The notes beneath the pieces were generated by a model. The model saw nothing but the letters and a program-made list of their open reading frames with translations, was not told the DNA's origin and did no database searches. 64,000 nucleotides of DNA from a virus, in IMG/VR virus record IMGVR_UViG_3300037504_000888, positions 39,265 to 103,264 of that record. One strand, 5' to 3'. Positions 33,136 through 64,000 of this stretch are shown piece after piece. The position numbers and the translations under genes are program-made. Position 1 is the stretch's first letter; each line of letters begins with the position of its first letter.

Positions 33136-34566
33136 ATGGAGAAGATCAGCGGACTCGTTCTCGACGCCCACGACGACGTCACCGGCTACATCGCAAAGGG
33201 CATTTGGCCCGAGCTCAGCGACGTGCCCGACTTGGTGAAGACCGCCGCGGCCATCACGCCCGAGCAACGCGAGGCACTGCCCGATGACGTCTTCGCTCTC
33301 GTTCTTCGCCACGGCGACGTCACGATGCGTAAGTACGCTTGTGTCGACGCTGGGAACGTGGCGCTCAACATCGCCTACTTCCTGTCCTCGTACAACAAGC
33401 TGCCGGTCGAGGCCATCAAGACGGCCGCGGCGAACCTCGAGACCGCGTGTCACTGGTACGACATCGAGCCGCCAGAGGAGCTGAAGAAGCTCAGTACCGG
33501 CAACATCCCCGTCATTGGCAAGCAGCAGGTCTGGAAGGACATGGACGGGACGACCTACTCCAAGAACGACCAGAGTTGGGACTTGGAGAAGAACGCTGAG
33601 GTGAGTGGTAGCTACGATCAGCCGAAGCAAGTAACCAAGGAGAAGGTCGACCCCACCCGTGGTCGCAAGAGCGCGGTGAAGACGGCGGAGGAGCAGTTCG
33701 AGGAGAGCCTCGCTGGTGAAACACTCGAGCGCGGTCAGGACATGCCCACTGAGGACCAGCCCAAATCGTTGCCGCAGGTGAAGAAGACTCTGACGCCGCA
33801 CGTCGACGTGTCGAGCCACGAACCCCCGAAGCTCATCACGAAGAAGGAGGCTAGTCGTTTTGCGATGCCTAGTATCCAACGCTACCCCCTCGATGGTTTC
33901 GATCAGGTGAAGATGGCCAGCGCCTACTTCGATGAGCAGTGCCGCTTCATGGACCCACCCGACCGTCGGGAGTTCGCCCACAACCTGGTGAAGCGGGCCT
34001 CGGAGCTCGAGCTCCCCGTCAGCGAAATCGCCCGCAACTACGGAGAGAACGAGGGTTACGCAAAAGAAGCTCAGCTCATCATGGCCATTGACCAGCGAGC
34101 TACGCTGCTCAAGGCCCATGCCGACCAAGACTTCGAGGAGGGTGTGAAGACCGCGAGTGCCTACGTGCTCGGGCTCTACGACCAGCTCTTCAATCAGCGA
34201 CAGCAGATGCCGGCTGAGGTGTGGGCAGGAGCGATGCACGAGATCGACAAACTGGCCGGGCTCGACGAGTTCTATGGCACCGAGCTCGATGACCCCTGGC
34301 TCGCCACCTTTTCCAAGCTGGCCGAGGAGGCGAACCCCAAAGACACCGTGGTCATCGGCAACGAATACATGACGGTCGAAGACCTCGAGAACTACGCCCA
34401 GCGGGGCGGCGAGCCCCTTGAGGGGCGTTTCGGTGAGGACTTCGTCAAGGAGTTCCAGGCCGACCCGAAGGGCATCTTCGACTCATTGCCAGTCGACCAG
34501 AAGAAGGTCATCATGCGGATGGTCAACAACGGGCACTCTGTCATTCAGGGCGCTTCCGCATCGTGA
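33136..34566 (+). CDS. Virion protein rich in K-[TL]-A motifs
   Basis: A 476-residue, mostly helical, acidic protein, first of a five-gene block ending in the portal. It contains at least six h-K-[TL]-A sites: LVKTAAA, AIKTAAA, VKTAEEQ, VKTASAY, DKLAGL and SKLAEE. Nearby HEIDKLA fits the D/H-E-h-x-K-h-A motif seen in other virion proteins here. It has no membrane segment; the middle (about 165-250) is charged and probably disordered. Because of its position I infer a head or internal virion protein, possibly processed during maturation. Family not recognised. Confidence 0.65.
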   Translation: MEKISGLVLDAHDDVTGYIAKGIWPELSDVPDLVKTAAAITPEQREALPDDVFALVLRHGDVTMRKYACVDAGNVALNIAYFLSSYNKLPVEAIKTAAANLETACHWYDIEPPEELKKLSTGNIPVIGKQQVWKDMDGTTYSKNDQSWDLEKNAEVSGSYDQPKQVTKEKVDPTRGRKSAVKTAEEQFEESLAGETLERGQDMPTEDQPKSLPQVKKTLTPHVDVSSHEPPKLITKKEASRFAMPSIQRYPLDGFDQVKMASAYFDEQCRFMDPPDRREFAHNLVKRASELELPVSEIARNYGENEGYAKEAQLIMAIDQRATLLKAHADQDFEEGVKTASAYVLGLYDQLFNQRQQMPAEVWAGAMHEIDKLAGLDEFYGTELDDPWLATFSKLAEEANPKDTVVIGNEYMTVEDLENYAQRGGEPLEGRFGEDFVKEFQADPKGIFDSLPVDQKKVIMRMVNNGHSVIQGASAS

Positions 34567-34572
34567 TGACCC

Positions 34573-35406
34573 ATGGCTCGAGACGACGAGGACTTCTTCC
34601 GGCCTGAGCCGGACCCACCCATTCAGCAGCGCATTCAGCGGCTGATTCGTGGCCCGTTCAAGAAGGTCCTCGAGGACGATGAAGCACAGGAGGACGAGTC
34701 GGACGCCGTCATAGAGACGGTGGAGTACGAGGATGACCGGGTGCGCACAGACGTGTCGCCGGCCGTCCCAATGCCGACGACCATCAACCTCTTCCAACAC
34801 CCGGATGCCCACCCCTTCGTGTTGGACCTGGCGCTGCTCCGCAAGTACGGTCCTGAGTGGATGCAGTGGGAGCCCGAGACCCTCGAGGGACGAATCCGCA
34901 TCGACTTTCGCAGCACGTTGAGCCAGCTCAACCTAGACAAGCTGCATGCGGTCGCCAACCTGCATTTGGTGGACACATTCTGGGACCACTGGACCGTTTT
35001 CAGTCCATGTGCGCAGGCACTCACTATGGTGCCGCCCGACTTCCGGGTGATGCAGGCCTTGACCGTTCCTCAGCTGCTCATCGCTGTCGACACGGCTGAG
35101 AAGATCAGGTCCGGTATGGAGTACTCCCTCGAAGTTCGGACCTACATGGAGCTCTGCTACTTGTACGACGGTATGGCCTGTCCCATTGCGCCGCTCGACG
35201 ACCTCCTCGACATCGACGCGTCGGAGTATGAGATTGACTGCGAGAGCATCAACGAGCGCTGGGACGACGTTCGGTCGAGCGGAAAAGCCCCGAAGGGTGG
35301 TACGGTAGAAGATGAGCAGCTTCGTCGCATGCTCGAGGCCCACCAACTCCTCGAGGAGAACCGTCAACTCCTGCAGGACCAGCTTCCGCTTCTGTACAAT
35401 GCCTGA
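34573..35406 (+). CDS. Unknown virion-block protein
   Basis: A 277-residue protein. The first 65 residues are very acidic (DDEAQEDESDAVIETVEYED) and probably disordered. The rest is a folded, mainly helical domain with several aromatic residues and four cysteines, ending in a coiled-coil-like tail (LRRMLEAHQLLEENRQLLQ). It overlaps the next gene by eight bases and sits upstream of the portal. A head-completion, adaptor or scaffold role is possible; none is shown. Confidence 0.6.
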   Translation: MARDDEDFFRPEPDPPIQQRIQRLIRGPFKKVLEDDEAQEDESDAVIETVEYEDDRVRTDVSPAVPMPTTINLFQHPDAHPFVLDLALLRKYGPEWMQWEPETLEGRIRIDFRSTLSQLNLDKLHAVANLHLVDTFWDHWTVFSPCAQALTMVPPDFRVMQALTVPQLLIAVDTAEKIRSGMEYSLEVRTYMELCYLYDGMACPIAPLDDLLDIDASEYEIDCESINERWDDVRSSGKAPKGGTVEDEQLRRMLEAHQLLEENRQLLQDQLPLLYNA

Positions 35407-36676
35407 CATCGACCCCTTCATCCTTCGCTGCATGCACGACGAGGTCGTGAAGGTGGCCTTTCTCGGGTCGTTGGCGCGGCAGGGCGTGCAGGCCGTCGGT
35501 AAGGCGGGTGGCAAGCTGTTGGCCAACAAGGGTGTCCAGTCCGCGGGCCGGCATGTTGCGCAGTCTGTCGGTGACGTAGGGGCCGGGATGGGTGTCGGCG
35601 CTGCCTCTGGTGGTCTGATTGGTGCCGGTACGGAAGGTTACAAGGGGTACCAGGAAGAGGGCGCCTCGGGCGCCGTGTCCCGAGGACTGCAGGGCGGTAT
35701 GAGGGGGGCGGGCCTTGGTGCGGCTATGGGCGGTGTTGCGGGCCTGGCGTCGGGAGGTCGAGCCACCGTCTCGGAGCTAGGCAAGACGCTCACGAAGGGC
35801 AAGTACAACCCCCTGGGTACCGCCGTGCGAACTGGACAGCGTAACCTTCACAGCGTCACGGGGCTCGCCCCCGGGGGTGCCAAGCGGGGCACCAAGGAGT
35901 ACGCGAATGCGCTGCGGGGCATGAAGATGGAGGGCTGGAAAGCCAAGGGAACCGCACAGGCGGCAGCGAAGACTAGGCGGCAGGCCGAGCAGGCCGTTGC
36001 CAAGTCCAAGCGCAAGGTGCACCGCGGGGAGAAGAACCTCGAGAGGGCGATCAAGAGCGGGGACCCCGCTGCCATCCGCAAGGCCGAGAGGTCTCTGGCT
36101 CGTGATTCACGGGCTATCCACAAGGGTGAAAAGGCTGTGGGGAAAGCCACGGATGCGCTCGACCGGGCAAGCGAGGAGGCCAAGTCGGTCGAGGACGCCT
36201 GGCAGGCGGGCATGACAAGCCTCCCGGGCGTGGCTGGGGCCGTGAAGGAGAAGGGTGTCGGTTCGTTGTGGGAGCACGGCATCAAACCACAGACGAAGAC
36301 CCTCTCCGGTAAGGCCATGTTGGCAGCGCCGGTGGCCCTGGCCGCGCCCACGCTGGCCACGGAGGAGGACGAAGAGGGTCGAGGGCGCGCCGAGCGCTTC
36401 AGCAAGTCCCTGGTCGAGAACGCGGCCTACACGACCACGCCGATGATTCCCTTGGTCGGCAGCGACATTATGGGGCGCTCTATCGGTGCAGCGGCGGGGC
36501 TTGGGGGGCGCAACATCGACAAGCTCATCGGCGCCGTGAAGCGCAAGCCCACGAGCGAACTTGGGGAGTCCCCCGGTGTGCCCGCCACCGATGGTGACAG
36601 TGAGGGCGGAATTCCCGTGGAGCGTGTGGTGAGCAACGCAGCACAGGGCAAGCCTCCGGAGGACATGCTGGTATGA
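35399..36676 (+). CDS. Gly/Ala-rich, glycine-zipper-like virion protein
   Basis: From the ATG of MPDIDPFILR (425 residues); a longer frame starts inside the upstream gene. The N-terminus carries MHDEVVKVAF, matching the D-E-h-x-K-h-A motif of other virion proteins. Residues about 50-125 are Gly/Ala-rich with GxxxG-like spacing (GVGAASGGLIGAG), as in glycine zippers that insert into membranes. A Lys/Arg-rich helical stretch (about 180-260) follows. This pattern suits an ejected internal protein that crosses the host membrane during DNA entry. It overlaps the portal gene by four bases. Function inferred. Confidence 0.6.
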   Translation: MPDIDPFILRCMHDEVVKVAFLGSLARQGVQAVGKAGGKLLANKGVQSAGRHVAQSVGDVGAGMGVGAASGGLIGAGTEGYKGYQEEGASGAVSRGLQGGMRGAGLGAAMGGVAGLASGGRATVSELGKTLTKGKYNPLGTAVRTGQRNLHSVTGLAPGGAKRGTKEYANALRGMKMEGWKAKGTAQAAAKTRRQAEQAVAKSKRKVHRGEKNLERAIKSGDPAAIRKAERSLARDSRAIHKGEKAVGKATDALDRASEEAKSVEDAWQAGMTSLPGVAGAVKEKGVGSLWEHGIKPQTKTLSGKAMLAAPVALAAPTLATEEDEEGRGRAERFSKSLVENAAYTTTPMIPLVGSDIMGRSIGAAAGLGGRNIDKLIGAVKRKPTSELGESPGVPATDGDSEGGIPVERVVSNAAQGKPPEDMLV

Positions 36677-38757
36677 GCTTTTCGTTCGGTAACTTCGCTC
36701 TCGGTGGCCCCTCTAGCCCGATGCGCTTTGCGCAGGGGCAGACCCGCGGGCGCATTCAGGGCGGCGGTCAGATTCAGGGGATCAACTACCCGAGCCCGTT
36801 CTTCGACATTGCTCACACGTACCTGCCGACGACGGTCAAGCAGCTCTTCAAGTTCTGCCGCTACTACTTCCTCACCAACCCGCTCATCAACGCCGTCGTG
36901 ATGAAGATGAGCGAGTACCCGGTCACCGACATCGTAGTCGACCACGAGGACCCACAAGTGGTGACGAAGTGGACGGACTACCTTCACGATACTGTGCGCG
37001 TCCGCTCCTTCCAGGTCGAGTGTGGGCTTGACTACCACTGTTACGGCACCTGCCCGGTGTCGATGAGCTTTCCGTTCCAGAAGTACCTGACTTGTCGCAA
37101 CTGCGGGTTCAGTGAGCAGGCGAAGAAGACCCGCAACCGCTGGATCTACACTAGTCACGAGTTCCGCTTGACTTGCCCGAAGTGCGGGCACGTCGGCGCC
37201 GCCACACCAAAGGACTGGTACTACCGAGATGCCTCCAGCATCCGCCCGGTGCGCTGGAACGTCGAGGACATCGAAGTCAACTACAACGACATCACTGGCG
37301 AGAGCACGTACTTCTACAACATCCCCGCTCCGCTGAGAGCCGATATCACGCTCGGCAAGAAGGACGTTGTGGAGGGGATGCCGCAGATCTTCTTGCAGGC
37401 CATCCGTCAGCAGAAGGGCGTGGTTTTCTCGAAGAACAACTTTTTTGCCCTCAAACGCGCCACCCTCGCCTGGCAGGACCGTGGCTGGGGTATTCCGATG
37501 ATTCTGCCCGTCCTCAAGGACGCGTTCTACCTGCAGATCATGAAGAAGGCGCAGGAAGCCATTTTGCTTGAGCACATCGTGCCTCTACGTGTCATCTTTC
37601 CGCAGGCGGCGAGCGGCACGTCAGACCCATATACGACAATCAATCTACAGGATTGGCGTGACCAGATGGCGGCCGAGATTGCCCGCTGGCGCCACGACAA
37701 CAACTACATCCCCATCATGCCGCTGCCCATTGGTAACCAGAGCATCGGCGGCGACGGCAAGGCCTTGCTGCTCAGCGGCGAGATGATGCAGCTAGGCGAG
37801 CAGATCATCATGGGCTTGGGTGTTCCACGGGAGTTCCTGCAGGGTGGTCTGAGCTACGCGGGCACCAACGTCTCGATGCGCATGTTGGAGAATGCGTTCC
37901 TCAGCTACATCGGCCGACAGCGCCAGATGGTGAACTGGATGGTGGAGATGGCCGCTCACTTCATGGGGTGGCCGAAGGTCAACGTCCGTTTCAAGCCGTT
38001 CAAGATGGCGGACGACCTGCAGCGCAAGTCGTATCTGTTCCAGTTGAACCAAGCGCAGAAGATCTCCGACACCACACTGCTCGCCGACGCCGACCTCGAC
38101 ATCGAGGAGGAGAACGACATCATGGTGCGCGAGGCCGCGCGTCGTATCGAGGCTACGAAGAAGAGTCAGCTCGCCATGGCCGAGATTCAGGGCGAGAGCC
38201 AGATTATCATGCAGAAGATGCAGGCCAAGGCGCAACGGGCCATGCAGCAAGCTATGCAGCAGCCACCCGCGCCTGGCGAGCCCGGTGGTCCTCCCCCTCC
38301 GGATCACCCTGCTGCGGAGGTCGTGGGCCAAGGCGGGGGAGCCCCTGTGGTTGGCGGGCATGCCGACCCGCCCGCGCTGCCCGGGTCGGGTGGTGGAGGG
38401 GCGGCCAGGTCCGTACCTCAGGGGGCTGAAAGCCAGCTCAGCGCCGAGCAGGACTTGGGGGTAGAAGAGGGGCAGCCCGAGCAGATGCCTGGCGATGTCA
38501 TTCAGCTCGCCGAGGGCTACGCTGCCCAGATCCTGCAGCTTCCTGCGGAGCAGCAGGAGTTGGCGCTTCAGGCCATCGAGGCTCAGAGCCCCGACCTCTT
38601 CCAGCTAGTCAGCGAGTTCATGTCGCTGATGCAGAAGGGTACGGCGGGTCAGGCCATGATGCCGGGGGACGCCCAGGGTGGCCCGGAGACCGGTGGTGTC
38701 GACCAGCGTCCGTTACCCGAAGTGCTGCCGCCACGGCGTGAAGCGGCTCTAGTCTGA
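36673..38757 (+). CDS. Portal protein with inserted zinc ribbon
   Basis: A 694-residue protein. Portal-like features: an N-terminal region with NPLINAVVMKMSEYP, a wing and stem region rich in helices, and GVPREFLQGGLSYAG followed by a long helix with NAFLSYIGRQ (about 380-415), as in large phage portals. CRNC (about 141) and CPKC (about 168) form a zinc ribbon inserted in the wing, which is not a standard portal feature. The C-terminal 160 residues are Gln/Pro/Gly-rich. The dodecameric ring would sit at the capsid vertex and feed DNA from the terminase encoded at 56338-58134. Identification is by pattern only. Confidence 0.75.
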   Translation: MSFSFGNFALGGPSSPMRFAQGQTRGRIQGGGQIQGINYPSPFFDIAHTYLPTTVKQLFKFCRYYFLTNPLINAVVMKMSEYPVTDIVVDHEDPQVVTKWTDYLHDTVRVRSFQVECGLDYHCYGTCPVSMSFPFQKYLTCRNCGFSEQAKKTRNRWIYTSHEFRLTCPKCGHVGAATPKDWYYRDASSIRPVRWNVEDIEVNYNDITGESTYFYNIPAPLRADITLGKKDVVEGMPQIFLQAIRQQKGVVFSKNNFFALKRATLAWQDRGWGIPMILPVLKDAFYLQIMKKAQEAILLEHIVPLRVIFPQAASGTSDPYTTINLQDWRDQMAAEIARWRHDNNYIPIMPLPIGNQSIGGDGKALLLSGEMMQLGEQIIMGLGVPREFLQGGLSYAGTNVSMRMLENAFLSYIGRQRQMVNWMVEMAAHFMGWPKVNVRFKPFKMADDLQRKSYLFQLNQAQKISDTTLLADADLDIEEENDIMVREAARRIEATKKSQLAMAEIQGESQIIMQKMQAKAQRAMQQAMQQPPAPGEPGGPPPPDHPAAEVVGQGGGAPVVGGHADPPALPGSGGGGAARSVPQGAESQLSAEQDLGVEEGQPEQMPGDVIQLAEGYAAQILQLPAEQQELALQAIEAQSPDLFQLVSEFMSLMQKGTAGQAMMPGDAQGGPETGGVDQRPLPEVLPPRREAALV

Positions 38758-38771
38758 TCGAGGGCTAGTTA

Positions 38772-38806
38772 CATTGGGCGGTGCCCCTGAGAGGGGCCGC
38801 CCAATG
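38772..38806. terminator. Inverted repeat between convergent operons
   Basis: Arms CATTGGGCGG (38772-38781) and CCGCCCAATG (38797-38806) pair perfectly. An inner CCCCT/AGGGG stem is offset by a two-base bulge. It lies between the portal stop and the end of the minus-strand VWA gene. There is no T-run on either side, so it may act as a bidirectional stabiliser or weak terminator. Confidence 0.6.
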
Positions 38807-38825
38807 CGTGGTCATAGGGTTTTGG

Positions 38826-43039: not shown

Positions 43040-43131
43040 TACCTGGAGTCCTCCTTCCTCCCCCTGTTGTTTTGCCGATTGGAGTCCTCCTTTTTCTTCG
43101 ACTCGTCGTCGCTGGAGGTCTTCTCGTTGTC

Positions 43132-49915: not shown

Positions 49916-49916
49916 T

Positions 49917-51170: not shown

Positions 51171-51173
51171 CGT

Positions 51174-51818: not shown

Positions 51819-51858
51819 CTTTGGTTCTGAACGCCCTGGAGAGGATAATCAAACCGAC

Positions 51859-53955
51859 ATGACTCAGCCGCTGTTTCATACCCTGGACGAGTTCATCGAA
51901 AAGACGGCCGGCGAGGTCAACCTCCCGGACGACCCGAACCAGTGGGCACAGAGCATCCTGCAGGAGCTCTACAAGCAGGTTCCGTACATCACGGATTACC
52001 AGCCGCACGTCCAGATGCAACGGGTCGATGCCGAGCGAGGTTACGGCCTAGGTCACGTCGAGATTCAGAACCAGACCGAGGCGCCGATGAATACGGACCC
52101 GGAGATGCTCGAAGCGACGGGTGTCCGCACGGTCCGCATTCCGTTCGTCATCAAGGAGAAGAAGCTCTCCCCGTTCGACCTGCTGGTGAACGACATGGGC
52201 AAGATGCTGCCACTCACCGAGAACCGGTTGAGGCAGGCGCTCTTCCGGCCTCAGGCGTTCGACGTTACTTCGAGGACCCCAGGCGACCAGAGCATGATCG
52301 GACAGCTCTACCCGCCCTACCGCCAGAACTACGGCTTCGGTGGGGGCGGCATTTCCATGAACGCTAGTGGCGGTATGGGGATGGGCAAGGTGGGTTCCGC
52401 CCTCGAGAACTTCCTCGACCCCGACGCGAAGACCGCGTCCAAGGCTCCTCCACAGCCCTTGCCGAAGAAACGGGGCTTCACCAAGTCCGCTGGCAGCTTG
52501 TTGAGCAACATTCTTCCGACCATCACGAGCGCTGACCACCAGCGCTTCACCGACGAGCTGCAGAAGAGCGCCAGTTACCTGTATGCGAACGCCAGCCTGT
52601 CGTGCGACTCGTTCAACGACATCCTCGGCGCCATCGTGAATACCGAGCCCAGCATGGAGAAGGCTGGCAGTTGGAAAGCATGGCTGCCCACCAGTGTGGC
52701 ACAGGTGCGTAGAACCAGCGACGGCTACGCCGTGAAGACGGCCAGTCATCACATCTGGGACCCCGACGAGGAGATCGTAGACCGGGGCGAGGTGGTGCGC
52801 CGCTTCGGCGTGAAGGTAGCCATGGACGCCGACACCAGCGGGGCCGTGACGGTCTCTGACCAGGAGGGTGTGACCGGCGAGGAGAGCCTCAACGAGATCG
52901 CCCCCGTCACCAAGCCAGGGTTCTACAAAGTCAAAGAGACCACCGGCAAGGAGCACATCGGCTACGTCGTTCCGTCACTCATCGACCTTAGTGGTGAGCT
53001 CGTGCCCATCGCCTTGTTCACCAACGGCAGCGTCGTTGCCGTACAGGGAGAGATCTGGGGGGAGGACGTGGGTGAGGGTACTGAGCTGCCGAGCGGCCCT
53101 GTAGGCAACGACGGCGCGTTCTACCAGATGGGTGAGGATGGCATCGAGATGACGGTGCCCTTCAATTTTCAGGACTCCTACACTTTTGGTACGCAGCCCA
53201 AGGTATTCCGAGGCACGACCTTCGACGGACGACCGAGCGAGGTCAGCGTGCAGCCGAACCTGGCAGGGGTCACTCCGGTCGACAACGGTCGCGTTCTGGT
53301 GCCGGAGGACTGGAACTGGTTACCTCTCGACGGTGTTGACACGGTGGTTCTGGTGGGTGGCGAGGAGGCCGACAGCCTCGACCCGATGGACAAGGCATCG
53401 TGCGTGCACGTGCGCAGCGACGGAGACAGCTTCAGCTTCGAGGGCGTACCCTTGGCCAAACTCGGCGCTGCTCAGACCCAGTGGCTAGCGCTCGACGACG
53501 CTATGTTCCTGCTTGCCGGGCTCGGCGTGAACCAAGAGCACGGTGTGAAGAAGCTGGCTGAGGCCGCGGCCTTCAAGGCTCCGCAGAGCATCCGCATCGG
53601 GCGCGTCATCGAAGACGGCGCTACACACATCAAGGAGTCGATGGCCCGCGCTGCCGAGCTCGTGGAGGGCATGTCCGCGTTCAAGCAGCCCATTTTGCTC
53701 AAAGAGGCCACCACCTTCCCCGACCCCACCACAGTGGACACGGTCCTCAGCCTCGGGTTCATCAACCCAGAGAACGTCCTGAGCTTCGTCGGCTACTTGC
53801 CGGACCTCGAGGACGTCCAGACCAAGCTCTGTGAGCTGCTCTTCAGCGTCCGTATCGGTCTGAAGAACATCCCTCAATCGGCGCTCGAGCGTGCCATCCG
53901 TTCTCTCGAGGAGACCATCGAGGGCTTGAAGGTTCTTGGCTTCCAAGGCTCCTGA
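51859..53955 (+). CDS. Large virion protein with K-T-A motifs
   Basis: A 698-residue protein beginning MTQPLFHTLDEFIEKTAGE, close to the D-E-h-x-K-h-A motif shared by virion proteins here. Further sites are DAKTASK, VKTASHH and KKLAEAA, plus KSASY. The fold looks mixed, with a Gly-rich stretch (GFGGGGISMNASGGMGMG) near residue 165 and beta-rich middle domains. No enzyme motif is seen. It overlaps the next gene by one base. I infer a structural or internal virion protein; the gene order after the spike suggests tail or neck. Confidence 0.65.
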   Translation: MTQPLFHTLDEFIEKTAGEVNLPDDPNQWAQSILQELYKQVPYITDYQPHVQMQRVDAERGYGLGHVEIQNQTEAPMNTDPEMLEATGVRTVRIPFVIKEKKLSPFDLLVNDMGKMLPLTENRLRQALFRPQAFDVTSRTPGDQSMIGQLYPPYRQNYGFGGGGISMNASGGMGMGKVGSALENFLDPDAKTASKAPPQPLPKKRGFTKSAGSLLSNILPTITSADHQRFTDELQKSASYLYANASLSCDSFNDILGAIVNTEPSMEKAGSWKAWLPTSVAQVRRTSDGYAVKTASHHIWDPDEEIVDRGEVVRRFGVKVAMDADTSGAVTVSDQEGVTGEESLNEIAPVTKPGFYKVKETTGKEHIGYVVPSLIDLSGELVPIALFTNGSVVAVQGEIWGEDVGEGTELPSGPVGNDGAFYQMGEDGIEMTVPFNFQDSYTFGTQPKVFRGTTFDGRPSEVSVQPNLAGVTPVDNGRVLVPEDWNWLPLDGVDTVVLVGGEEADSLDPMDKASCVHVRSDGDSFSFEGVPLAKLGAAQTQWLALDDAMFLLAGLGVNQEHGVKKLAEAAAFKAPQSIRIGRVIEDGATHIKESMARAAELVEGMSAFKQPILLKEATTFPDPTTVDTVLSLGFINPENVLSFVGYLPDLEDVQTKLCELLFSVRIGLKNIPQSALERAIRSLEETIEGLKVLGFQGS

Positions 53956-54638
53956 TGTACCCCTCGTTTTTCGACGAGATGCACAAGATTGCGGACGCGG
54001 CTCAAGCTGCACCTGCGCCCAACCCGGTGTTGGACAAGATGAAGGCCAGGGCTGGCGAGATGGGTGTGCCCATTCGGACCTTCATGGACATGTTCACTGA
54101 CTTCGAGGACAACCTCACCGAAGAGGGTAAGAACCTCGATGAGAAAGGCCGACAGGAAGCAGCCACACAGATGGAGCGGGATCTTACGGCCTTCTACCAC
54201 CCCGACAAGCATTCGGTGTACCTGGGAGAGAACATAGACCCGGCCATCCTGGCCCATGAACTCGGCCATGCGGATCAGAAGGGGAGCCTCATCCAGAACA
54301 GGGTGGCTCGAGAACTTCATAATTCTAGCGCACCTGTTGGGGCTTTGACCGGAGTGGGGCTGGCGGCGCTCCGGGGTTCTGATATGTCGCACCCAGCGGT
54401 GAACGTGGCTGGTGCGGCGCTCCCTGTGGTGATGGGGGCACCCACGATGGCGAACGAAGCCATAGCGTCTTTCAAGGGCTACAAGATGCTTCAGGATGCG
54501 GGGGCTAGCGCGGATGAGCTCAAAGGTGCTCGAAAGCGGTTGCGCAAGGCTTTCGGCACCTACACAGTGGAGCCGCTTGCTGGAACGGTGCTGTCTACCG
54601 CCGGCGCGGTTGTCCCGAAGAGCCTCTTGCAGTCGTAG
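53955..54638 (+). CDS. Virion-associated HExxH metallopeptidase-like protein
   Basis: A 227-residue protein with N-terminal SFFDEMHKIADAA, an example of the shared D-E-h-x-K-h-A motif. HELGH (101-105) in AILAHELGHADQK is a canonical zinc-protease motif. Two hydrophobic, Gly/Ala-rich segments follow (about 128-165, and a C-terminal stretch near 200-220). It may be carried in the particle and act on the host envelope, or it may process virion proteins. No third ligand can be fixed by eye, and the substrate is unknown. Confidence 0.65.
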   Translation: MYPSFFDEMHKIADAAQAAPAPNPVLDKMKARAGEMGVPIRTFMDMFTDFEDNLTEEGKNLDEKGRQEAATQMERDLTAFYHPDKHSVYLGENIDPAILAHELGHADQKGSLIQNRVARELHNSSAPVGALTGVGLAALRGSDMSHPAVNVAGAALPVVMGAPTMANEAIASFKGYKMLQDAGASADELKGARKRLRKAFGTYTVEPLAGTVLSTAGAVVPKSLLQS

Positions 54639-54687
54639 ATTCTGCAGTTCTTGACGTCGTGGCTGTAATCCGCCACCTTCTTCGGTG

Positions 54688-56083: not shown

Positions 56084-56339
56084 TGAAGACCAACTGCTTC
56101 TTCTTGTAGTGAAAGTCCACGGCTTTCCACCCACATCGTTTCAGGAACTGCCGAATGAACCCGTTGACGTACTTCGGTGTCCCCTTGGGCAGAGGCGCTC
56201 GCATCGACAGAAGGACCTGCACCTGATGCTCCGTGGGGTTGACGCCGTAACCCCCGGTGAAGTGGTCGCCGCCGGCGGACAACCAAGGCCACACCTGAGC
56301 CAGAGCCTCGCTGGGGTCTGCCGTTTCTTGGGGGTCCAT
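55953..56339 (-). CDS. Probable minus-strand gene inside the late plus-strand block
   Basis: A 128-residue frame with protein-like composition: a folded stretch (GFIRQFLKRCGWKAVDFHY, KKKQLVFTMKP) and a basic Arg/Glu-rich tail. It fills what would otherwise be a 250-base gap between plus-strand genes. Its ATG overlaps the terminase ATG on the other strand within CATG (56337-56340), and no ribosome site precedes it. An internal GTG near 56294 with GAGG upstream is an alternative. It could be a small regulator or inhibitor. Moderate doubt remains about reality. Confidence 0.5.
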   Translation of the reverse strand: MDPQETADPSEALAQVWPWLSAGGDHFTGGYGVNPTEHQVQVLLSMRAPLPKGTPKYVNGFIRQFLKRCGWKAVDFHYKKKQLVFTMKPWPLHKQEAARLRSEEFRQEARRNREEKRLDRATPRTPAP

Positions 56340-58134
56340 GGGTGAAGCTGCGTTGAAGATGACTCCCGAGGATCTCGAGGAGGACTACGACGATTCTTGG
56401 TACGAGGATGAGGTCTGGCGGCCTGAGTCCGAGGTCGAAGAGGAGCCCATCGTACTCGAGCGGGCTCGGGACAAGCTACCAGAGATCCCCAAAATTCTAC
56501 CAAGCCAGTTCACATCTGGGGTCTTCCAGATGCCCAAGCCGGACGGCACCGGCTACGCGCCCTTCTCCTTTGAGGGGCGCCGGCACCTGCAACGCATCTA
56601 CGACACACCGGCGCGCAAGGTGCTCATGTGCTGCGGGCGGCAGGTCGAGAAGTCCACACTGCTCGGGAACCTCAGCCTCGCCTACATGACGCTTGTCGTC
56701 GGTCTGCGCATCCTATTCGTCTCGCCCTCCAGCACGCAGACGAAGACGTTCAGCAACGACCGCATCAAGGAGCCCATCGAGACAAGCCCACTGTTGACGC
56801 GGTTCACAACGAGCATGCTGACGAAGAACATCTTCGAGAAGCAGTTCGTGAACCGGTCGATGATTACCATGCGGTACGCGTACCTCAACGCGGATCGAAC
56901 TCGTGGCATCCCAGCGTGGCAGCTCTTCCTCGATGAGATTCAGGACATCCTGCGGGACAACATCCCGGTCATCGAGCACTGTCTTAGCCACGCCCCAGAG
57001 ATGTGGCGACGACAAGTGTACTCCGGCACACCGAAGAGCCTCGACAACATCATTGAGGACTATCGCGCCAATCAAAGCACGCAGGGAGAGTGGGTCGTTC
57101 CTTGTGAGGGTTGTAGACACTGGAACGTGTTGGGCGAAAAGAACATCGGCAAAAAGGGTGTCATCTGCGCCAAGTGCGGCAAGCCCATCGACCCGCAGGG
57201 ACCACGAGCACAGTGGGCCTGGATGGTCAAACCCGACCCTACGGACCCGAACAAGGTGCCCTGGGAGAGCTACCGCATACCTCAGCTCATGGTGCCGTGG
57301 AAGCTCAGCGAGGAGGGCTGGGCTGAGGTCCTTTACGGTTACGAGAACTACCCACGCGCCAAGTTCATGAACGAGACTCTCGGCATCTCGTTCGAGTCTG
57401 GGATGCGCCCCATCACCACAGCGCAGATGCGGGACGCTTGTGGTGAGCACTCGATGAACGACCTAGAGACGGTGCGCACCCTTAGCTTGTCGCAGCCTTT
57501 TTTCATGGGGGTCGACTGGGGTACAGGCGACAACGCTTATACCGTCTGCGTGATTGCTACCTACGTCGAGAACCGCTTCCGCGTTCTGTTCGCTCACCGC
57601 TTCGTAGGGGAAGAATCCGACCCTAACGTTCAGTTGAAGAAGCTCGTCGACCTCGGCAGACACTTCAACATTGCCATATTCGGCTGTGACTACGGCTTCG
57701 GCTTTGGGATGAACCACCACCTGGTGCGCGCCTTCGGTGCGCCTCGCGTGATGAAGTACCAGTACATGGGACAACTCGCGAAGAAGGTGTTGTGGGACGA
57801 GAAAATGCAGCGCTGGAAGGCGCACCGCACCGAGGTGATGAGCGCCATCTTCGAGGCGATTAAGAAGAAGAAGTGCGAGTTTCCCAAGTGGGAGGAGTTC
57901 AAGGCGCCCTACGCCAAGGACTTCACCAACATCTACTCCGAGTACAACGAACGGCTGCGCATCGTGCAGTACGACCACAAGCCAGGCAATCCTGACGACA
58001 CGTTCCACGCGTTCACTTACGCTTGGCTCGCCTCGATGATTGTGATACCCCGCCCAGACATCATCTCTCCCTCGAAGGAGGATGAGGACGGGAGACCGAT
58101 CAGCCCTTACTCGGGCCCCGTCGACCAGGGTTAG
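56338..58134 (+). CDS. Terminase large subunit
   Basis: A 598-residue DNA-packaging motor protein. The Walker A-like CCGRQVEKST (about 97-106) is the GRQ-type P-loop found in some terminases, and Walker B is LFLDEIQD (about 197). The RNase H-like nuclease shows its acidic residues in GVDWGTGD (about 392), GCDYGFG (about 449) and DDTFHAFTYAW (about 553). A zinc ribbon (CEGC, CAKCG; about 256-281) is inserted between the domains, as in lambda gpA-type enzymes. It cuts and pumps DNA through the portal. The start is uncertain: ATG at 56338 overlaps the divergent start of the minus-strand gene, and an ATG at 56359 is possible. Confidence 0.9.
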   Translation: MGEAALKMTPEDLEEDYDDSWYEDEVWRPESEVEEEPIVLERARDKLPEIPKILPSQFTSGVFQMPKPDGTGYAPFSFEGRRHLQRIYDTPARKVLMCCGRQVEKSTLLGNLSLAYMTLVVGLRILFVSPSSTQTKTFSNDRIKEPIETSPLLTRFTTSMLTKNIFEKQFVNRSMITMRYAYLNADRTRGIPAWQLFLDEIQDILRDNIPVIEHCLSHAPEMWRRQVYSGTPKSLDNIIEDYRANQSTQGEWVVPCEGCRHWNVLGEKNIGKKGVICAKCGKPIDPQGPRAQWAWMVKPDPTDPNKVPWESYRIPQLMVPWKLSEEGWAEVLYGYENYPRAKFMNETLGISFESGMRPITTAQMRDACGEHSMNDLETVRTLSLSQPFFMGVDWGTGDNAYTVCVIATYVENRFRVLFAHRFVGEESDPNVQLKKLVDLGRHFNIAIFGCDYGFGFGMNHHLVRAFGAPRVMKYQYMGQLAKKVLWDEKMQRWKAHRTEVMSAIFEAIKKKKCEFPKWEEFKAPYAKDFTNIYSEYNERLRIVQYDHKPGNPDDTFHAFTYAWLASMIVIPRPDIISPSKEDEDGRPISPYSGPVDQG

Positions 58135-58846: not shown

Positions 58847-58858
58847 GATACTCCTGGT

Positions 58859-58868
58859 ATAGGCCTAT
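58859..58868. promoter_or_regulatory. Operator-like palindrome between divergent genes
   Basis: ATAGGCCTAT is a perfect 10-bp palindrome in the 20-base gap between the HTH regulator ATG and the plus-strand ATG at 58867, overlapping the latter. Its place fits a binding site for the HTH protein acting on both genes. This is inferred from position and symmetry only. Confidence 0.35.
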
Positions 58869-59856
58869 GACCCAGTACGATCTACCTCCTCAGGCTGCTC
58901 TTCAGCAATCTTCAGCACGTCCGCTGTCCGGTGAAGAGCTCGAGACGTATGGCAAACACGCCGCCGCGAAGTACGCATGTGGCGAGTGCTGCAGCCTCAA
59001 TGCGGCCGTTGTCGAGACGGTCAAACAAGCGGGTCTGAGTCCCGAGCAGGTGAAGCGGGTCTGCGAGTTCGCCAACACCGATGCGTTCCTCAAGGAGTTC
59101 AAGAAGGAAGCGGCTTCTTCGAAGTACGTCATGTTCGAGAGCGGCCCCGCCGACTTCAGCGAGGTCCTCAAGGACCTGAACGATGGCGGCGGTGGTAGTG
59201 TCTTCGACCGCGGTAATGCGGACTACGCCCACGCCCCAGCCGTGGTGAAGATTGGCGCTGCTAGGCAGCAGTCGATGGAGAAGACTGCTAGCGCCGACCA
59301 GAAGTCTTCTCGTGCCGATGAGGTTCTCGCCGACGCCTTTGCCATCGACAAGACAGCAGAGCCACTCCCCTACGCCAACTCCCTACAAGATGTCCACGAG
59401 CTCCAAGACAAGCTCTCGACGGCGCGCGACAGCGCAACCGCGGAGTTGTCCGCCTTGGAGACCATCATGCTGGACGCCACCGAGGACTTGTACCAACGCG
59501 TCAAGCAGGCCGCCCTCGAAGGGATGCCGCTCGGTCACGTGGTTCAGGCGTGGGACCAGGCGCTGGCGCCAAATCCGGCGTTGGTGAAGGCGGCCTTTGC
59601 CCAGATCGGCCCCCGGCTGCAGGAAGAGGGGGTCTTCAATAGCCTCGACGCCCTAGGTCAGAGCCTCACCAAGACGGCGGGCCTCCGGGCGATCGTCGAT
59701 GAGACTCATCCCATCGTGTCGGCCTTTGGGGCCTACTGCGAGGGAACCGAAAAGCTGGCGATGCTCCGTGCCGCCAGGCAGGAGTTCATCGACGGGATTA
59801 ACCAACTGACTCTGTTCGGAAAGTCCGTCAACGAACACTACCCGGAGCAAGTGTGA
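58867..59856 (+). CDS. Virion protein with K-T-A motifs
   Basis: A 329-residue, mostly helical protein. A cysteine pair (ACGECC, about 38) lies near the N-terminus. Sites MEKTASA, DKTAEPL, TKTAGL and EKLAML fit the h-K-[TL]-A pattern abundant in this block. No membrane segment or enzyme motif is seen. It overlaps the next gene (ATGATGA), which in turn touches the prohead-protease-like gene, so a head protein such as a scaffold, internal or decoration component is likely. Family not recognised. Confidence 0.6.
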   Translation: MTQYDLPPQAALQQSSARPLSGEELETYGKHAAAKYACGECCSLNAAVVETVKQAGLSPEQVKRVCEFANTDAFLKEFKKEAASSKYVMFESGPADFSEVLKDLNDGGGGSVFDRGNADYAHAPAVVKIGAARQQSMEKTASADQKSSRADEVLADAFAIDKTAEPLPYANSLQDVHELQDKLSTARDSATAELSALETIMLDATEDLYQRVKQAALEGMPLGHVVQAWDQALAPNPALVKAAFAQIGPRLQEEGVFNSLDALGQSLTKTAGLRAIVDETHPIVSAFGAYCEGTEKLAMLRAARQEFIDGINQLTLFGKSVNEHYPEQV

Positions 59857-60692
59857 TGAACCCCATCGACGAGTACATCATGGCCAAGGAGGCCGCCGGG
59901 TTCGGGAAGAAGGTCGGCGACTTCTTCAAGAGCGACCCTGGTCGGATCGCCGCAGGCGCCATCGGTACTACAATGGCAACAGCAGGACTCATGGCGGCTC
60001 CTACAGCGGCCAACAAGGTCTATCAGGCGGCTACGAAGCGACAACGCTTCAACGAGATGTTGGACATGAACACGGACCTTGCTGCCTTCAAGAACGAGTC
60101 GCCGGAGGCTGAGAAGCAGTTCAACGCCATGTACAACTCGTTGCACCGGCTCAGCCCCAAGTTTGCTCGTGACCCTCTCGTTGCCGGCAGCTACATGCGG
60201 CAGATGACGATGAATCCCGACAATGCGGGAAAGGTACTCGTCGAATCGATCAAGGGCCACCCCGCCTCCAGCATGCCCAGCATGGGCGACGCGTGGCGCG
60301 CCGGCGCTGGAGCTGGTGGGCGCGTGGTTGGTATGGGCATCGAGCGCGGCATGGACCCGAACTACGGAGCACAGCAGAGGCTCAAGGGCATGGAGCTCCA
60401 GAGAGGGCTTCGAGATGTCGGTCGCGACCTTGCAGTGCCCGACTCTCGTTACCAGATGGAGCAGGAAAAGCGGGACCTCGAGCTGCAACGAGATGTCGGG
60501 AAGGTTCAACAAGATCTGGCTGGGCCCACCCCGCTCGAGACGCTTCGCGAAGAGGCCGAGGAAGCGAAGCTCATCTCTGAACTTGGCAGTCGACCATCTC
60601 CGAGCTACGACCAGATCCGTAAGAACGTTGCTGAGATGGAGCTGGAAGCAAAGCAGGAACGGCTGGCGAAGGATATGCACGGCGGACAGTAA
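59853..60692 (+). CDS. Virion protein with one membrane-like segment and coiled coils
   Basis: A 279-residue protein. After a helical start (NPIDEYIMAKEAAG) comes a Gly/Ala-rich hydrophobic segment (AAGAIGTTMATAGLMAAPT, about 34-52). A second Gly-rich stretch lies near residue 148. The C-terminal 120 residues are charged coiled coil (LREEAEEAKLISELG-like). Its stop shares a base with the start of the protease-like gene. An internal or injected head protein is plausible. Confidence 0.55.
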   Translation: MMNPIDEYIMAKEAAGFGKKVGDFFKSDPGRIAAGAIGTTMATAGLMAAPTAANKVYQAATKRQRFNEMLDMNTDLAAFKNESPEAEKQFNAMYNSLHRLSPKFARDPLVAGSYMRQMTMNPDNAGKVLVESIKGHPASSMPSMGDAWRAGAGAGGRVVGMGIERGMDPNYGAQQRLKGMELQRGLRDVGRDLAVPDSRYQMEQEKRDLELQRDVGKVQQDLAGPTPLETLREEAEEAKLISELGSRPSPSYDQIRKNVAEMELEAKQERLAKDMHGGQ

Positions 60693-63688
60693 TGCTCAAG
60701 GTCAGCACGTTCGCGTCCGAGAACGAGCTGGGCTACACGGCGGTTCCGCTTTTTGGCCCAGCAGACGGGGAGTTCGAGAAGAACGCTAGCGCTTCTCTTT
60801 TACCTCCAGTTCTCCAGTACATCGAGACTCTGCGGCCCAAGAAGGACTCGCAGTACGTCTTGGTGAACGCTTTGGCCGCGGGTGAGTACTTCGGATGCTT
60901 CCCGGCAGGCACGCTCGTCGAGACCGACACGGGGGAGCAGCCCATCGAGGAGGTCGAGCCGGGAGCGTTGGTTCGGACGCACCTCAACCGGCACCAGAAG
61001 GTGCTGGCGCGCATCCCGAAGCAGGCTGATGAGCTGTGCGACCTCTACGTTCAAGGGTTTCCCAGCAACCTTCCATCGTTGACGGCAACCCCCAATCACG
61101 AGCTCTGGGTTGTCACCCGTCAGGACTTCGTTCAGACGAAGCGTCGGGTGGTCTGGAAGGGCGACACCAGCACTTCTGTGGAGCAACGGCGTGAGCAGGC
61201 GTTAAAGGAGATGGAGTTCTCCTGGGTGCCCATCGGCAGTCTTCAGCCGGGAGACTACATCGCTGAGCCTTTCCCGCTGGATGAAGACCCCGCGGCGCTG
61301 GGGGATGAGAAGTGGAACTGTCCCGAGGTGGCGTTCCTCATGGGGCTGTATGCTGCCGAGGGGTGTACTGTTACCCGCGCAGAGCGTCCGGGGGAGAACC
61401 ACTACGTCGTCTACGTCACCTCTTCTGAGGAAGAGCAGGTCATCCAGCGTGCTGCACAGCATGCTGAGAAGTTCGGGTACTCATTGTACACGGACCGCTC
61501 CAAAGTTACGTCCATCAGAGCCGAGCTACATTGGCAAGACTTTGCACGCTTGTGCTACGAGCACGTGGGCAAGCTGGGTCCACATAAGAAACTAAGCGCA
61601 GCGCTGACCCGCATGCCGCGTGGGTGGCAGCGTGTGTTCCTTGCCGCCTATGCCGCCGGGGATGGCTGCGTTCGTCAGGGTGGGAAAGAAGACGGGTCGC
61701 AGCGGATGGTATCTGCATCGGCAGCGCTCCTTCGCGGCATGCGTCTCATTCTTGCGCGTTGCGGCCTTGTTGGTTCCATTAGTGGACGCCACAACAAGAA
61801 GGCGACGTGGTACAACGGCAGCCCCATCTACGAGCTCAGCGTTAGCGGGGGGCAACTCAAGGGGCGTGGAACGCCGAAGAGTTACTTGCACCCGGATGGC
61901 TACATCCTTTCTGCGGTGAAGAGGGTTGAGCAGTACGCTTGGCAGGGGGAGGTCTACGACCTGACGGTTGAAGAAGACTCTTCATTCGTCGCATCGGGCA
62001 TCTGTGTCCACAACAGTAATATCAATGGCGATTTCTTTCCTGAGGCGGCGCTCATCCACGCTCCCAGTGGTTGGACGAACAACCCGGTTGTAGATAAGGC
62101 GCTGGCGAAGGACTGGCCCTACGGGTTTCCGACGTTCTACAACGCTCATCCGTACGCTCACCACCGCAACAAGGACCCCAGTCGCGCCTACGGTGAAGTC
62201 GAGCTCGCGTTGTGGAACGACCAGATGAAGCGCGTCGAGCTCGTAGTCCGTGTCGACTACGACAAGTGTGTGCAGTTCGGCGGCGTGCCCGTCTGGGACA
62301 AGCTGGTCAAGGGGCAGTTTCCAGACGTCAGCATGGGGAGCAAAGTCCCCTATGACACCAGCTCCATCACACTGGACTGGGAGTTGTACCGCAAGGCGCA
62401 GGAGACCTTCGACCCGAAGAAGCACAAGCATCCGGGCATCGCCGTCCTCGAGTTTCACAAGAAGCTCAAGAAGAAGGATGGCAAGGGAATCCCCGGCGTC
62501 TCCATCACGCGGGACGACTACGACGAGTACTGTACCAAGCACATGAACCGCATCCTGCCCGATGGCAGGAAGGTGTTCGTCTACAACGACTACCCCCGCT
62601 TCTTCGACATCAGCTTCGTGTTCATCGGCGCCGACCGCACGGCGAAGACCCTGGTCTACATTCACCAGACCAAGGACAAGCCCAGTGTGAAGATCGCTGA
62701 GGCAGGCGAGAAGGTTGCCAGCGTGCAGCAGAAGTGCCTGAATGCCGTCATGGACCTAGCCGAGGCCAACCCGGGCCTTACCGTGATGACTGGTCCTGCC
62801 GACAAGAAGTACGACACGCGCCACTTCTGGGCCGTGGACAAGAAGGGGAAGGTTCACGACCCCACCCGCAGCGACTACAAGCACTACTCCCAAGGCAAGC
62901 CCCTCGACATGGCGGCCAATGCGGAGGCGCTCGGCGAGATTCGGAAGACAGCGGCCATTCCTGAGGAGAACTTCGTCAGCGCCCTCATCAAGGGTGCGGA
63001 ACAACGCAAGCGTGCGGAGATCGAGAAGGAGGTCGTGCCGAGTCAGTTGGCGAGCAAGGCCATCCCCGTGCTGACGAAGACTGAGTCGGACTTGCCAGAC
63101 GAGCTTATCAACGCCATGGCAGCCAAGCCGCTCGACGAGGCGCTTTCTACCTCAAGCGGGCTCTGTATGGTGATCAAGCCGCGTGAGTTTCAACGCATTG
63201 TACTCATCCGCGCCGGTAAGAAGCCGCTAGCGGATGCGCTGGACGACCGGGGCATCCTCTTCCCCAAGACGGAGGAGAGGGACGAAAGCCTGCAACTTTC
63301 TGAGGAAAAAGTGCTTCCGGCGCTCGCCAAAGCGTTGATGCCGATGTTCGACATGAGGTCGGCGATGGCACCTGCGATTGAACGCCGTGTTGTAATTGCG
63401 TTCAACCCGTCGATGGGTGATGTAACGCCTACTTCCCTTCCTTCAGAAGACCTCCGTAAGATTGGAGCTGCATACAGCGCGTACCGCAATCAGCTGATCG
63501 ACATGGCACCCCACGCTCAAGACCTCATCACTAAGACTGCTTCGTCGAAGGACGTCGAGCTCATGAAGGTGGCAAGTGCCGATGCTGATGATATTTTCAC
63601 CCATCTATCCTTCCTCTACATGCGGGATGCCTACTTGGATGAACTCCCGCTTGGTGATGAAACGGAGTCGATGGTACAACTTTCGTAA
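60692..63688 (+). CDS. Prohead-protease-like protein interrupted by an intein
   Basis: A 998-residue precursor; removal of the 373-residue intein leaves about 625 residues. The extein core after splicing reads GEYFG-SNINGDFFPEAAL, followed by NAHPYAHHRNKDP, GEVELALWND and FPDVSMGSKVPYD. This is the pattern of phage capsid-maturation serine proteases (His in AHHR, Ser in VSMGS). The C-terminal half adds a segment with Cys, RHFWAVD and HDPT that could be a second peptidase-like fold, then helices with RKTAAI, TKTASS and MKVASA. It probably processes head proteins; the abundant K-[TLIV]-A motifs in neighbouring proteins are candidate sites. Catalytic residues are inferred from pattern. Confidence 0.8.
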   Translation: MLKVSTFASENELGYTAVPLFGPADGEFEKNASASLLPPVLQYIETLRPKKDSQYVLVNALAAGEYFGCFPAGTLVETDTGEQPIEEVEPGALVRTHLNRHQKVLARIPKQADELCDLYVQGFPSNLPSLTATPNHELWVVTRQDFVQTKRRVVWKGDTSTSVEQRREQALKEMEFSWVPIGSLQPGDYIAEPFPLDEDPAALGDEKWNCPEVAFLMGLYAAEGCTVTRAERPGENHYVVYVTSSEEEQVIQRAAQHAEKFGYSLYTDRSKVTSIRAELHWQDFARLCYEHVGKLGPHKKLSAALTRMPRGWQRVFLAAYAAGDGCVRQGGKEDGSQRMVSASAALLRGMRLILARCGLVGSISGRHNKKATWYNGSPIYELSVSGGQLKGRGTPKSYLHPDGYILSAVKRVEQYAWQGEVYDLTVEEDSSFVASGICVHNSNINGDFFPEAALIHAPSGWTNNPVVDKALAKDWPYGFPTFYNAHPYAHHRNKDPSRAYGEVELALWNDQMKRVELVVRVDYDKCVQFGGVPVWDKLVKGQFPDVSMGSKVPYDTSSITLDWELYRKAQETFDPKKHKHPGIAVLEFHKKLKKKDGKGIPGVSITRDDYDEYCTKHMNRILPDGRKVFVYNDYPRFFDISFVFIGADRTAKTLVYIHQTKDKPSVKIAEAGEKVASVQQKCLNAVMDLAEANPGLTVMTGPADKKYDTRHFWAVDKKGKVHDPTRSDYKHYSQGKPLDMAANAEALGEIRKTAAIPEENFVSALIKGAEQRKRAEIEKEVVPSQLASKAIPVLTKTESDLPDELINAMAAKPLDEALSTSSGLCMVIKPREFQRIVLIRAGKKPLADALDDRGILFPKTEERDESLQLSEEKVLPALAKALMPMFDMRSAMAPAIERRVVIAFNPSMGDVTPTSLPSEDLRKIGAAYSAYRNQLIDMAPHAQDLITKTASSKDVELMKVASADADDIFTHLSFLYMRDAYLDELPLGDETESMVQLS
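60896..62014 (+). mobile_element. Intein with LAGLIDADG endonuclease domain
   Basis: A 373-residue in-frame insertion beginning at Cys69 (CFPAGTLVETDTG, block A) and ending in VHN before Ser (block G: GICVHN-S). TATPNHELWV is block B with the expected T-x-x-H-like arrangement, and VYDLTVEEDSSFVASG is block F. Between them, VAFLMGLYAAEGC and VFLAAYAAGDGC are the two LAGLIDADG helices with acidic catalytic residues. All splicing residues (Cys1, His, Asn, +1 Ser) are present, so it should self-splice, and the endonuclease looks intact. The insertion lies at the conserved N-x-N-G-D stretch of the protease-like core. Confidence 0.93.
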
Positions 63689-63785
63689 CAGGCGCAAGCC
63701 AGCGTGGAGAGGGGCCTCCCCTCGAGGAAGCGTGGACGGAATCTGAGCGAACCAGAGCGAACCAGACCACACCCGGAGATGAACC
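63689..63785 (+). other. Short non-coding spacer before the last gene
   Basis: A 97-base gap with a small GAGGGGCCTCCCCTC-type inverted repeat (about 63711-63726) and no T-run. The ribosome site GGAG lies just before the ATG at 63786. The spacer is longer than most in this block, so an internal promoter or RNA-processing site for the following, presumably highly expressed, gene is possible. Confidence 0.35.
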
Positions 63786-64000
63786 ATGGGAATGAACCCC
63801 ACTCTCGCTGCCATGTACAACACCCACGGAGCCGGACAGGCACTGCAGGAAGAGCAGGTCAAGGTTGCGCACCTCGACCTCTTCGCCAAGGCCGCCATGG
63901 CCAACGGTATCGACCTCAGTCAGCTCGACGATGAGACGAAGAACGAGCTTTTCGCCGAATTCACCACCAAACTCGCCGAGGAAGACGGCGGCGAGGAGGG
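63786..64000 (+). CDS. Virion protein, 3' end cut off by the window
   Basis: The ATG of MGMNPTLAAMYN has a GGAG ribosome site, and 71 codons are visible before the window ends. The sequence is helical and acidic with QVKVAHLDLF, FAKAAMANGIDL and TTKLAEEDGG, again showing the h-K-[LV]-A pattern. Its place after the prohead-protease-like gene is where scaffold or major capsid genes usually lie, and the acidic helical start would suit a scaffold or capsid-associated protein. Too little is visible for a firm call. Confidence 0.6.
   Translation, partial: MGMNPTLAAMYNTHGAGQALQEEQVKVAHLDLFAKAAMANGIDLSQLDDETKNELFAEFTTKLAEEDGGEE

Follow-up and report, generated by a model that had tools for sequence, protein, structure and literature searches.

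Herpesvirus maturation protease (assemblin) cuts between Ala and Ser. In phage T4, a leader of 10 residues targets the internal proteins to the prohead core and is then removed by the protease; the first 10 residues of IPIII suffice for targeting, and targeting and processing residues are separable (excerpts of PMC9026906). The propeptides of phages SPN3US and phiKZ contain several sites of their own proteases, and the SPN3US protease gp245, with its A-X-E site, prefers Ser at P1' (excerpts of PMC10052503). Here, we analyzed a stretch of 64,000 nucleotides (the window), bases 39265-103264 of the 103,264-base virus record IMGVR_UViG_3300037504_000888. Like the mReC phages (Weinheimer and Aylward 2020) and Salmonella phage Arash, it belongs to a large tailed phage with its own multi-subunit RNA polymerase. 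The original prediction was that unrelated virion proteins of this DNA share a short motif, D-E-h-x-K-h-A, that targets them to the capsid or docks them to a scaffold. We found that the motif is two nested features, a widespread K-h-A core and an N-terminal FFDE leader. It appears reasonably probable that the leader directs cargo proteins into the core of the prohead and that the maturation protease recognizes K-h-A and cuts after its Ala.

As with T4 IPI, IPII, IPIII and Alt, a short N-terminal leader is found on differing small basic proteins and ends in the motif of the head protease. Unlike the T4 leader, FFDE-h-x-K-h-A has Ala and not Glu before the predicted cut, is not homologous to the T4 leader and occurs up to 15 times per genome; targeting and cutting would be the shared part. 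By analogy, the FFDE leader would work like the T4 capsid-targeting sequence, without being a member of that sequence family. SPN3US (A-X-E) and phiKZ (S/A-X-E) likewise have many sites in head proteins and in the protease itself, with Ser after the cut in SPN3US, as far as the excerpts go. In contrast to both, the motif is K-h-A instead of one ending in Glu, and many internal copies lie in structured regions. Assemblin has the same predicted fold as the protease described below; unlike in assemblin, Lys two residues before Ala is the defining residue here. The head block is homologous to that of Arash, but the FFDE leader is absent from Arash.

The K-h-A core in the late genes

K-x-A sites were rated by a context score, which was trained without Arash or Vibrio phage D69 so that these served as a held-out test. 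The five strings on which the prediction was based are the following (coordinates of the window).

5955..5981, plus strand: FFDEVNKLA, internal copy of the tag, gene 3645-6521, amino acids 771-779, context score 3.2
34237..34257, plus strand: HEIDKLA, K-h-A core without D-E leader, gene 33136-34566, amino acids 368-374, context score 3.1
35432..35458, plus strand: MHDEVVKVA tag, gene 35312-36676, context score 3.5
51883..51909, plus strand: LDEFIEKTA, N-terminal K-T-A site with other spacing, amino acids 9-17, context score 5.7
53967..53993, plus strand: FFDEMHKIA, N-terminal tag, gene 53955-54638, amino acids 5-13

All five were present, although FFDEVNKLA lies outside the part (33136-64000) to which it had been assigned. 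The proposed common form is shared by FFDEVNKLA, MHDEVVKVA and FFDEMHKIA, which have the same spacing; HEIDKLA, without D-E, and LDEFIEKTA, with one extra residue between E and K, are looser. Several copies had been called N-terminal. This applies to genes 53955 and 51859 as annotated and to gene 35312 if translation starts at ATG 35399, in which case MHDEVVKVA would be an N-terminal leader with K at residue 18; the other two copies lie deep inside their proteins. Open reading frames (ORFs) and starts were picked by our own ORF chooser, and start positions are therefore uncertain.

A regular-expression scan of the whole record (101 ORFs, 31,687 amino acids) revealed three exact matches to D-E-h-x-K-h-A, with about 0.04 expected. 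All three were in ten late genes, a group chosen after the motif had been seen, and none in the other 91 ORFs, including the replication genes. Shuffled sequences gave means of 0.011 and 0.032 for these two groups, and 0 of 1000 shuffles reached three matches in the late genes. For the core, K-[TILVM]-A was counted 26 times in the ten head-block proteins, compared with 7.3 in shuffled sequences (maximum 15 in 500 shuffles) and 11 for the reversed A-h-K. Elsewhere, counts stayed close to the shuffled values: 9 versus 8.1 in 22 replication-block proteins, 11 versus 12.0 in 20 other proteins of the window and 10 versus 10.9 in 44 proteins of the left 39 kb of the record. Thus, the equal frequency in replication proteins or shuffles that would have spoken against the prediction was not observed.

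Relatives were collected with the terminase (5 loci), the protease (80 loci) and the capsid protein (80 loci), giving about 150 related loci; a search with the 53955 protein gave no match. The family survey comprised 38 families with at least four non-redundant members each (447,065 amino acids). Proteins containing X, the loci L001, L005, L008 and L167-L169, and smaller families were excluded from the counts. Over all families, 2687 KhA were counted where composition predicts 722; the count of AhK was 654. The excess was up to tenfold and concentrated in about 12 families of head proteins (scaffold-like proteins, protease, N-terminus of the major capsid protein). Observed and expected KhA were 197 and 19 in a family of 120-amino-acid proteins, 342 and 52 in the 58867 family (72 members), 270 and 45 in the 51859 family (43 non-redundant members; AhK 29), 370 and 67 in the scaffold-like relatives of 63786, 458 and 94 in a family of 477-amino-acid proteins, 361 and 82 in the protease family, and 79 and 20 in the capsid protein family. 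As a non-enriched control, the terminase family (70 members) had 24, with 34 expected.

The logo of 4246 K-x-A windows from nine enriched families reads [FML] at -2, [EV] at -1, K, [TLIV], A. Directly after Ala, S, A, E and H are preferred and L, I, V and W strongly avoided, followed by [A,V]. The core [FML]-[EV]-K-[TLIV]-A-[S/A] is not enriched in terminase, replication and most tail proteins. In the window's own record, 22 sites have a context score of at least 3, and 20 of these are in six late genes (3645, 33136, 35312, 51859, 58867 and 60692). The genes of this block, together with neighboring late genes that carry a site, are listed here; 3645, 35312 and 53955 follow with the leader.

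33136..34566, plus strand: K-x-A-rich late protein, function unknown, with a context score of at least 3 at 6 sites
51859..53955, plus strand: K-x-A-rich late protein with N-terminal LDEFIEKTA
58867..59856, plus strand: helical K-x-A-rich head-block protein, 9 K-x-A sites, model with pLDDT 84.8
59853..60692, plus strand: late protein, MNPIDEYIMAKEA at its N-terminus; 41 of 60 relatives have an N-terminal K-x-A
60692..63688, plus strand: prohead maturation protease with intein and 78-amino-acid insert (from alignment, the model of a relative and the Pfam intein match)
60773..60790, plus strand: FEKNAS, N-terminal K-x-A-S of the protease, conserved in relatives
63786..63998, plus strand: K-x-A-rich scaffold-like protein, beginning only, cut by the record end

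Lys- and Ala-rich helical proteins might yield K-x-A by chance, and the enriched proteins are indeed rich in A and K and the modelled 58867 protein is helical. However, neither composition-preserving shuffles nor the reversed tripeptide reproduce the excess, and the context logo transfers to distant isolates (see below). Composition was ruled out as the cause on the shuffles and reversed motifs, and we find a chance origin scarcely credible.

The FFDE leader and its probable cargo

A DNA pattern for FFDE-h-x-K-h-A matched 117 stretches of the viral collection, compared with 12 for an equally degenerate FFED control. Eighty of the 117 stretches were examined as loci, and 95 hits of the leader pattern were read in them. 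The leader was N-terminal on 55 distinct ORFs of at least 55 amino acids, with K at residues 8-20, mostly 11-15; a few of these are chance matches from unrelated phages. Its general form is 'M..x..FFDELxKIA', as in MNHFEFGFFDELEKIA. The portions behind the leader fell into 47 clusters without similarity between clusters. The proteins were small (median 124 amino acids) and 44 of the 55 were basic. In one locus (L186), five leader genes lie within 3 kb.

The richest genome, G014 (155 kb), has 15 leader genes among 158 ORFs, with 1.1 expected at the internal rate and 0 for the reversed pattern; the looser expression used for these counts was composed after the leaders of this genome had been seen. 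Its usual leader is 'MN[SHAP]F[EQ][FLY]GFF[DTS]EL.K[IVL]A', with K at residue 14. The cargo ranges from 55 to 256 amino acids. Of the 15 cargo proteins, 14 are basic, as against 37 of 97 small ORFs without the tag (p 2e-5), and a clear relationship among leader proteins is confined to one pair. Twelve of the leader genes, small and mostly unrelated, lie in two clusters at 34.1-55.5 kb (L292-L293); the genes of these clusters are a candidate set of injected proteins. With the leader N-terminal on 55 ORFs in 47 mutually unrelated clusters and with mostly basic cargo in G014, the comparison with T4 capsid-targeting sequences made at the outset holds well.

The leader is linked to the phage clade of the window. 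A search of the 75 records from which the 80 loci derive located the protease in 29 (20 of 39 and 9 of 36). It was present in 19 of 29 records with the strict leader, compared with 10 of 46 others (p 2e-4), and in 0 of 12 records of the FFED control. RNA polymerase and capsid protein were sought in the ten strict-leader records without protease, of which five carried the RNA polymerase and two the capsid protein of the clade. Judged by at least one of the three markers, 26 of the 29 strict-leader records belong to the clade; several of these records are fragments.

Three genes of the window carry the tag.

3645..6521, plus strand: fusion of SNF2-type helicase, inorganic pyrophosphatase (InPase) and Gly-rich tail, 958 amino acids (Pfam)
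35312..36676, plus strand: Gly-rich late protein, likely start ATG 35399
53955..54638, plus strand: HExxH (Zn-metallopeptidase-like) protein with N-terminal tag; Pfam Zn_peptidase_2 at 1.1e-5, under the curated cut-off

Gene 3645 matched Helicase_C (1.9e-16), SNF2 (1e-12) and InPase (1.5e-30, amino acids 632-751) in Pfam, and two further stretches of it gave no Pfam match. Its helicase part is 37% identical to Arash gp217. FFDEVNKLA directly follows the InPase domain and precedes the C-terminal segment, and it looks as if a tagged protein became fused behind this domain. The first 11 residues, MSEWDSFFKHA, resemble a weak form of the leader, with K-H-A at residues 9-11. A related locus, L209, has two leader proteins, one metallopeptidase-like and related to the 53955 protein and one InPase, matching what the window carries. 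InPase domains of this kind have been proposed to be packaged in virions (excerpts of PMC5512222).

The leader could instead address proteins to another site, such as the virion RNA polymerase, the portal or an intracellular compartment. The clade does carry a virion-type RNA polymerase, but the K-h-A half of the leader is common to capsid, protease and scaffold-like proteins, and we consider such an address distinctly improbable.

The prohead protease and the use of its putative site

Sequence searches of the head-block protease against solved structures and Pfam gave no match. An AlphaFold model of a relative (L005, 583 amino acids, mean pLDDT 76, pTM 0.49) shows a mixed alpha/beta domain (about residues 37-293) and a C-terminal domain of helices, joined by a linker of low confidence (296-357). 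In a Foldseek search, T4 gp21 took the top three rows, with an E value of only 0.35. A second structural comparison gave T4 gp21 at Z 8.5 over 131 residues and 2.7 A, where a Z near 8 may be unspecific according to the tool's own note. The first 18 rows of this comparison were all T4 gp21 or herpesvirus proteases, and it is this uniform list rather than the Z value that makes the predicted gp21/herpesvirus protease fold persuasive. S173, in V-S-M-G, and H116/H117 are invariant in 37 sequences, in which K29 and A31 are nearly so. Pfam detected an intein (LAGLIDADG and Hint domains) in the window protease at about amino acids 69-441, at the G-[S/C]-N-x-N-G/A-D position, and there is one in relative L004 as well. 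The alignment further showed an insert of 78 amino acids (674-752) between K-V-A and K-T-A that is absent from four relatives. It has a C...H...D pattern and gave no Pfam match; possibly, this part of the protease polypeptide is an enzyme that is carried along as cargo.

In the model, the N-terminal K-V-A lies behind a low-confidence stretch (residues 1-27), and conserved K-x-A columns lie in the linker. The N-terminal site occupies a fixed column in 87% of 70 protease rows and in 97% of 39 rows of the major capsid protein. By family, conserved columns hold 52-93% of sites, and in most other families a quarter to half of the sites lie outside. These fixed places at the N-termini of protease and capsid protein, together with the many copies inside scaffold-like proteins, suggest that the K-h-A half is a protease recognition or cleavage site more than a docking tag. 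Of the function first proposed, capsid targeting thus fits the leader on unrelated cargo, and docking fits the K-h-A half less well.

We propose the following course. K-[TLIV]-A-[S/A], usually after [FML]-[EV], would be recognized by the prohead protease that the phage itself encodes, and this enzyme would probably also cut there, after Ala. FFDE-h-x-K-h-A would be an N-terminal capsid-targeting leader that ends in this site. The hydrophobic and acidic FFDE half would bring small, mostly basic cargo into the prohead core. Cutting at K-h-A would then release the cargo within the head and also reshape the proteins of scaffold, core and capsid, and the cargo would be ejected together with the DNA. 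Of this course, we infer the targeting, the cleavage with its precise bond, and the ejection.

Isolated phages were included for comparison. A near-identity search with the window among phages gave no match, and protein searches reached Arash, the Vibrio phages D69, D148 and D181 and, distantly, Bacillus phage G. The Arash head block (gp218-226) contains 44 K-x-A sites, compared with 12.9 in shuffled and 14 in reversed sequences; in its capsid protein, gp226, the cut is predicted after K-E-A near residue 29. The context score of the head-block sites was 2.41, compared with -1.40 for other Arash K-x-A sites (p 6e-15); the D69 head block reached 1.49 against the same Arash sites (p 2e-9). Excerpts of the published Arash proteome (PMC10585845) place eight of the nine proteins gp218-226 in mature particles, gp219 being missing. 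They also list gp206 and gp216 among the proteins with most spectra and helicase gp217 with 38 unique peptides. The coverage column of Table 2 was left unused, as proteins with 2 unique peptides are given there as 100%. A general K-x-A excess across Arash virion proteins was not seen: the 49 well-detected particle proteins outside the head block have 71 sites versus 64 expected by shuffling, and 137 proteins undetected in these data have 39 versus 45. In phage G, K-x-A density is slightly raised and no site is claimed. A looser leader pattern was dropped for Arash, D69 and phage G, because it matched about as often as the backward control.

Several observations weigh against targeting and cutting as proposed. 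Of the nine K-x-A sites of the 58867 model, six fall within a confidently predicted helix or at its end, so that many sites need not be cut. A second K-V-A, in the C-terminal half of the major capsid protein, is present in 95% of rows, and cutting there is unlikely. K-x-A-rich Arash proteins persist in particles, unlike in complete destruction, and the published Arash data, in the excerpts, cover whole proteins and not protein ends. Arash proteins outside the head block that have a good site are found in particles no more often (3 of 7) than others (103 of 235), so that a good site elsewhere did not predict presence in particles. In phage G, the context score is -0.55 and the extended context is missing from its proteins. 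Finally, the FFDE leader occurs in 0 of 3 among Arash, D69 and phage G and is therefore a feature of part of the relatives.

Two other readings account for some of these points. K-h-A may lie in an amphipathic helix by which internal proteins attach to a common partner, either the scaffold or the inner surface of the capsid, and are held in the core uncut, the N-terminal leader being another form of the same docking helix. The confident helices of the 58867 model, the hydrophobic periodicity of the logo at -9, -2 and +1, the several copies per protein and the persistence in Arash particles agree with this. In contrast, the preference for Ser or Ala and the avoidance of L, I, V and W just after Ala resemble a protease subsite, a site lies at the protease's own N-terminus beside the low-confidence stretch, and the phiKZ and SPN3US propeptides also have many sites each in the excerpts above. 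Docking without cutting is therefore rather unlikely in our view. A division of roles, in which cutting is restricted to N-terminal and linker sites and the conserved copies in helices are remnants with a structural or docking role, would suit the mixed setting, with protease-model sites in low-confidence regions (1-27 and 296-357) and helical 58867 sites, and the share of sites in conserved columns. But one logo describes all sites, which is simplest with one reader, and we judge this division improbable. The helical 58867 sites and the K-x-A-rich proteins remaining in Arash particles are the reason why targeting to the core and cutting after Ala are held with moderate confidence only and these readings kept live.

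Other genes of the window and meaning of the proposed code

The remaining genes considered are the following.

36673..38757, plus strand: portal protein, no motif enrichment, 31% identity to Arash portal gp204 (E 1e-91)
43292..49915, plus strand: fused beta-beta' RNA polymerase, no strong sites; Pfam Rpb2_6 3.3e-46 and Rpb1_2 7.7e-27
56338..58134, plus strand: terminase large subunit, Pfam GpA_ATPase 3.8e-10

The 43292 product is the probable virion RNA polymerase, with 30% identity to Arash gp206 and 25% to gp216. It encodes the mReC trait, beta and beta' of a multi-subunit RNA polymerase, joined in one gene of 2207 amino acids; Arash has two genes, gp206 and gp216. A fold search of the 58867 model against viral structures gave no match at E <= 0.001. 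At 14934-15743 lies a Cys-rich protein with a CxxxCxxC-like motif near its N-terminus, radical-SAM-like by eye and without a search made.

Our literature searches, which left most subscription papers and preprints outside PMC uncovered, found neither K-h-A or FFDE leaders nor a comparable code for the RNA-polymerase-encoding group; in the main text of PMC7481178, as far as accessible to a term search, the word protease is absent. What is new, as far as these searches show, is the sequence code itself, the clade in which it occurs and how many proteins are tagged; T4 already provides a system of this kind.

Phage-injected proteins, which often disarm defences, are hard to tell from sequence; in T4, a short leader serves to mark them. 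It seems moderately probable that, throughout this clade of large and mostly uncultured phages, FFDE leader and K-h-A form one modular address-and-cut code that loads up to about 15 unrelated small basic proteins, and also enzymes, into the capsid for injection; pyrophosphatase and metallopeptidase would be among these enzymes. Arash and D69 exist as isolates, and the protease half is therefore testable now. If the code is confirmed, the specificity of the head protease would be predicted as K-h-A and not x-x-E, the leader could be used directly to load foreign proteins into a capsid, and a regular-expression scan for it would yield lists of candidate injected proteins for hundreds of genomes of uncultured phages.

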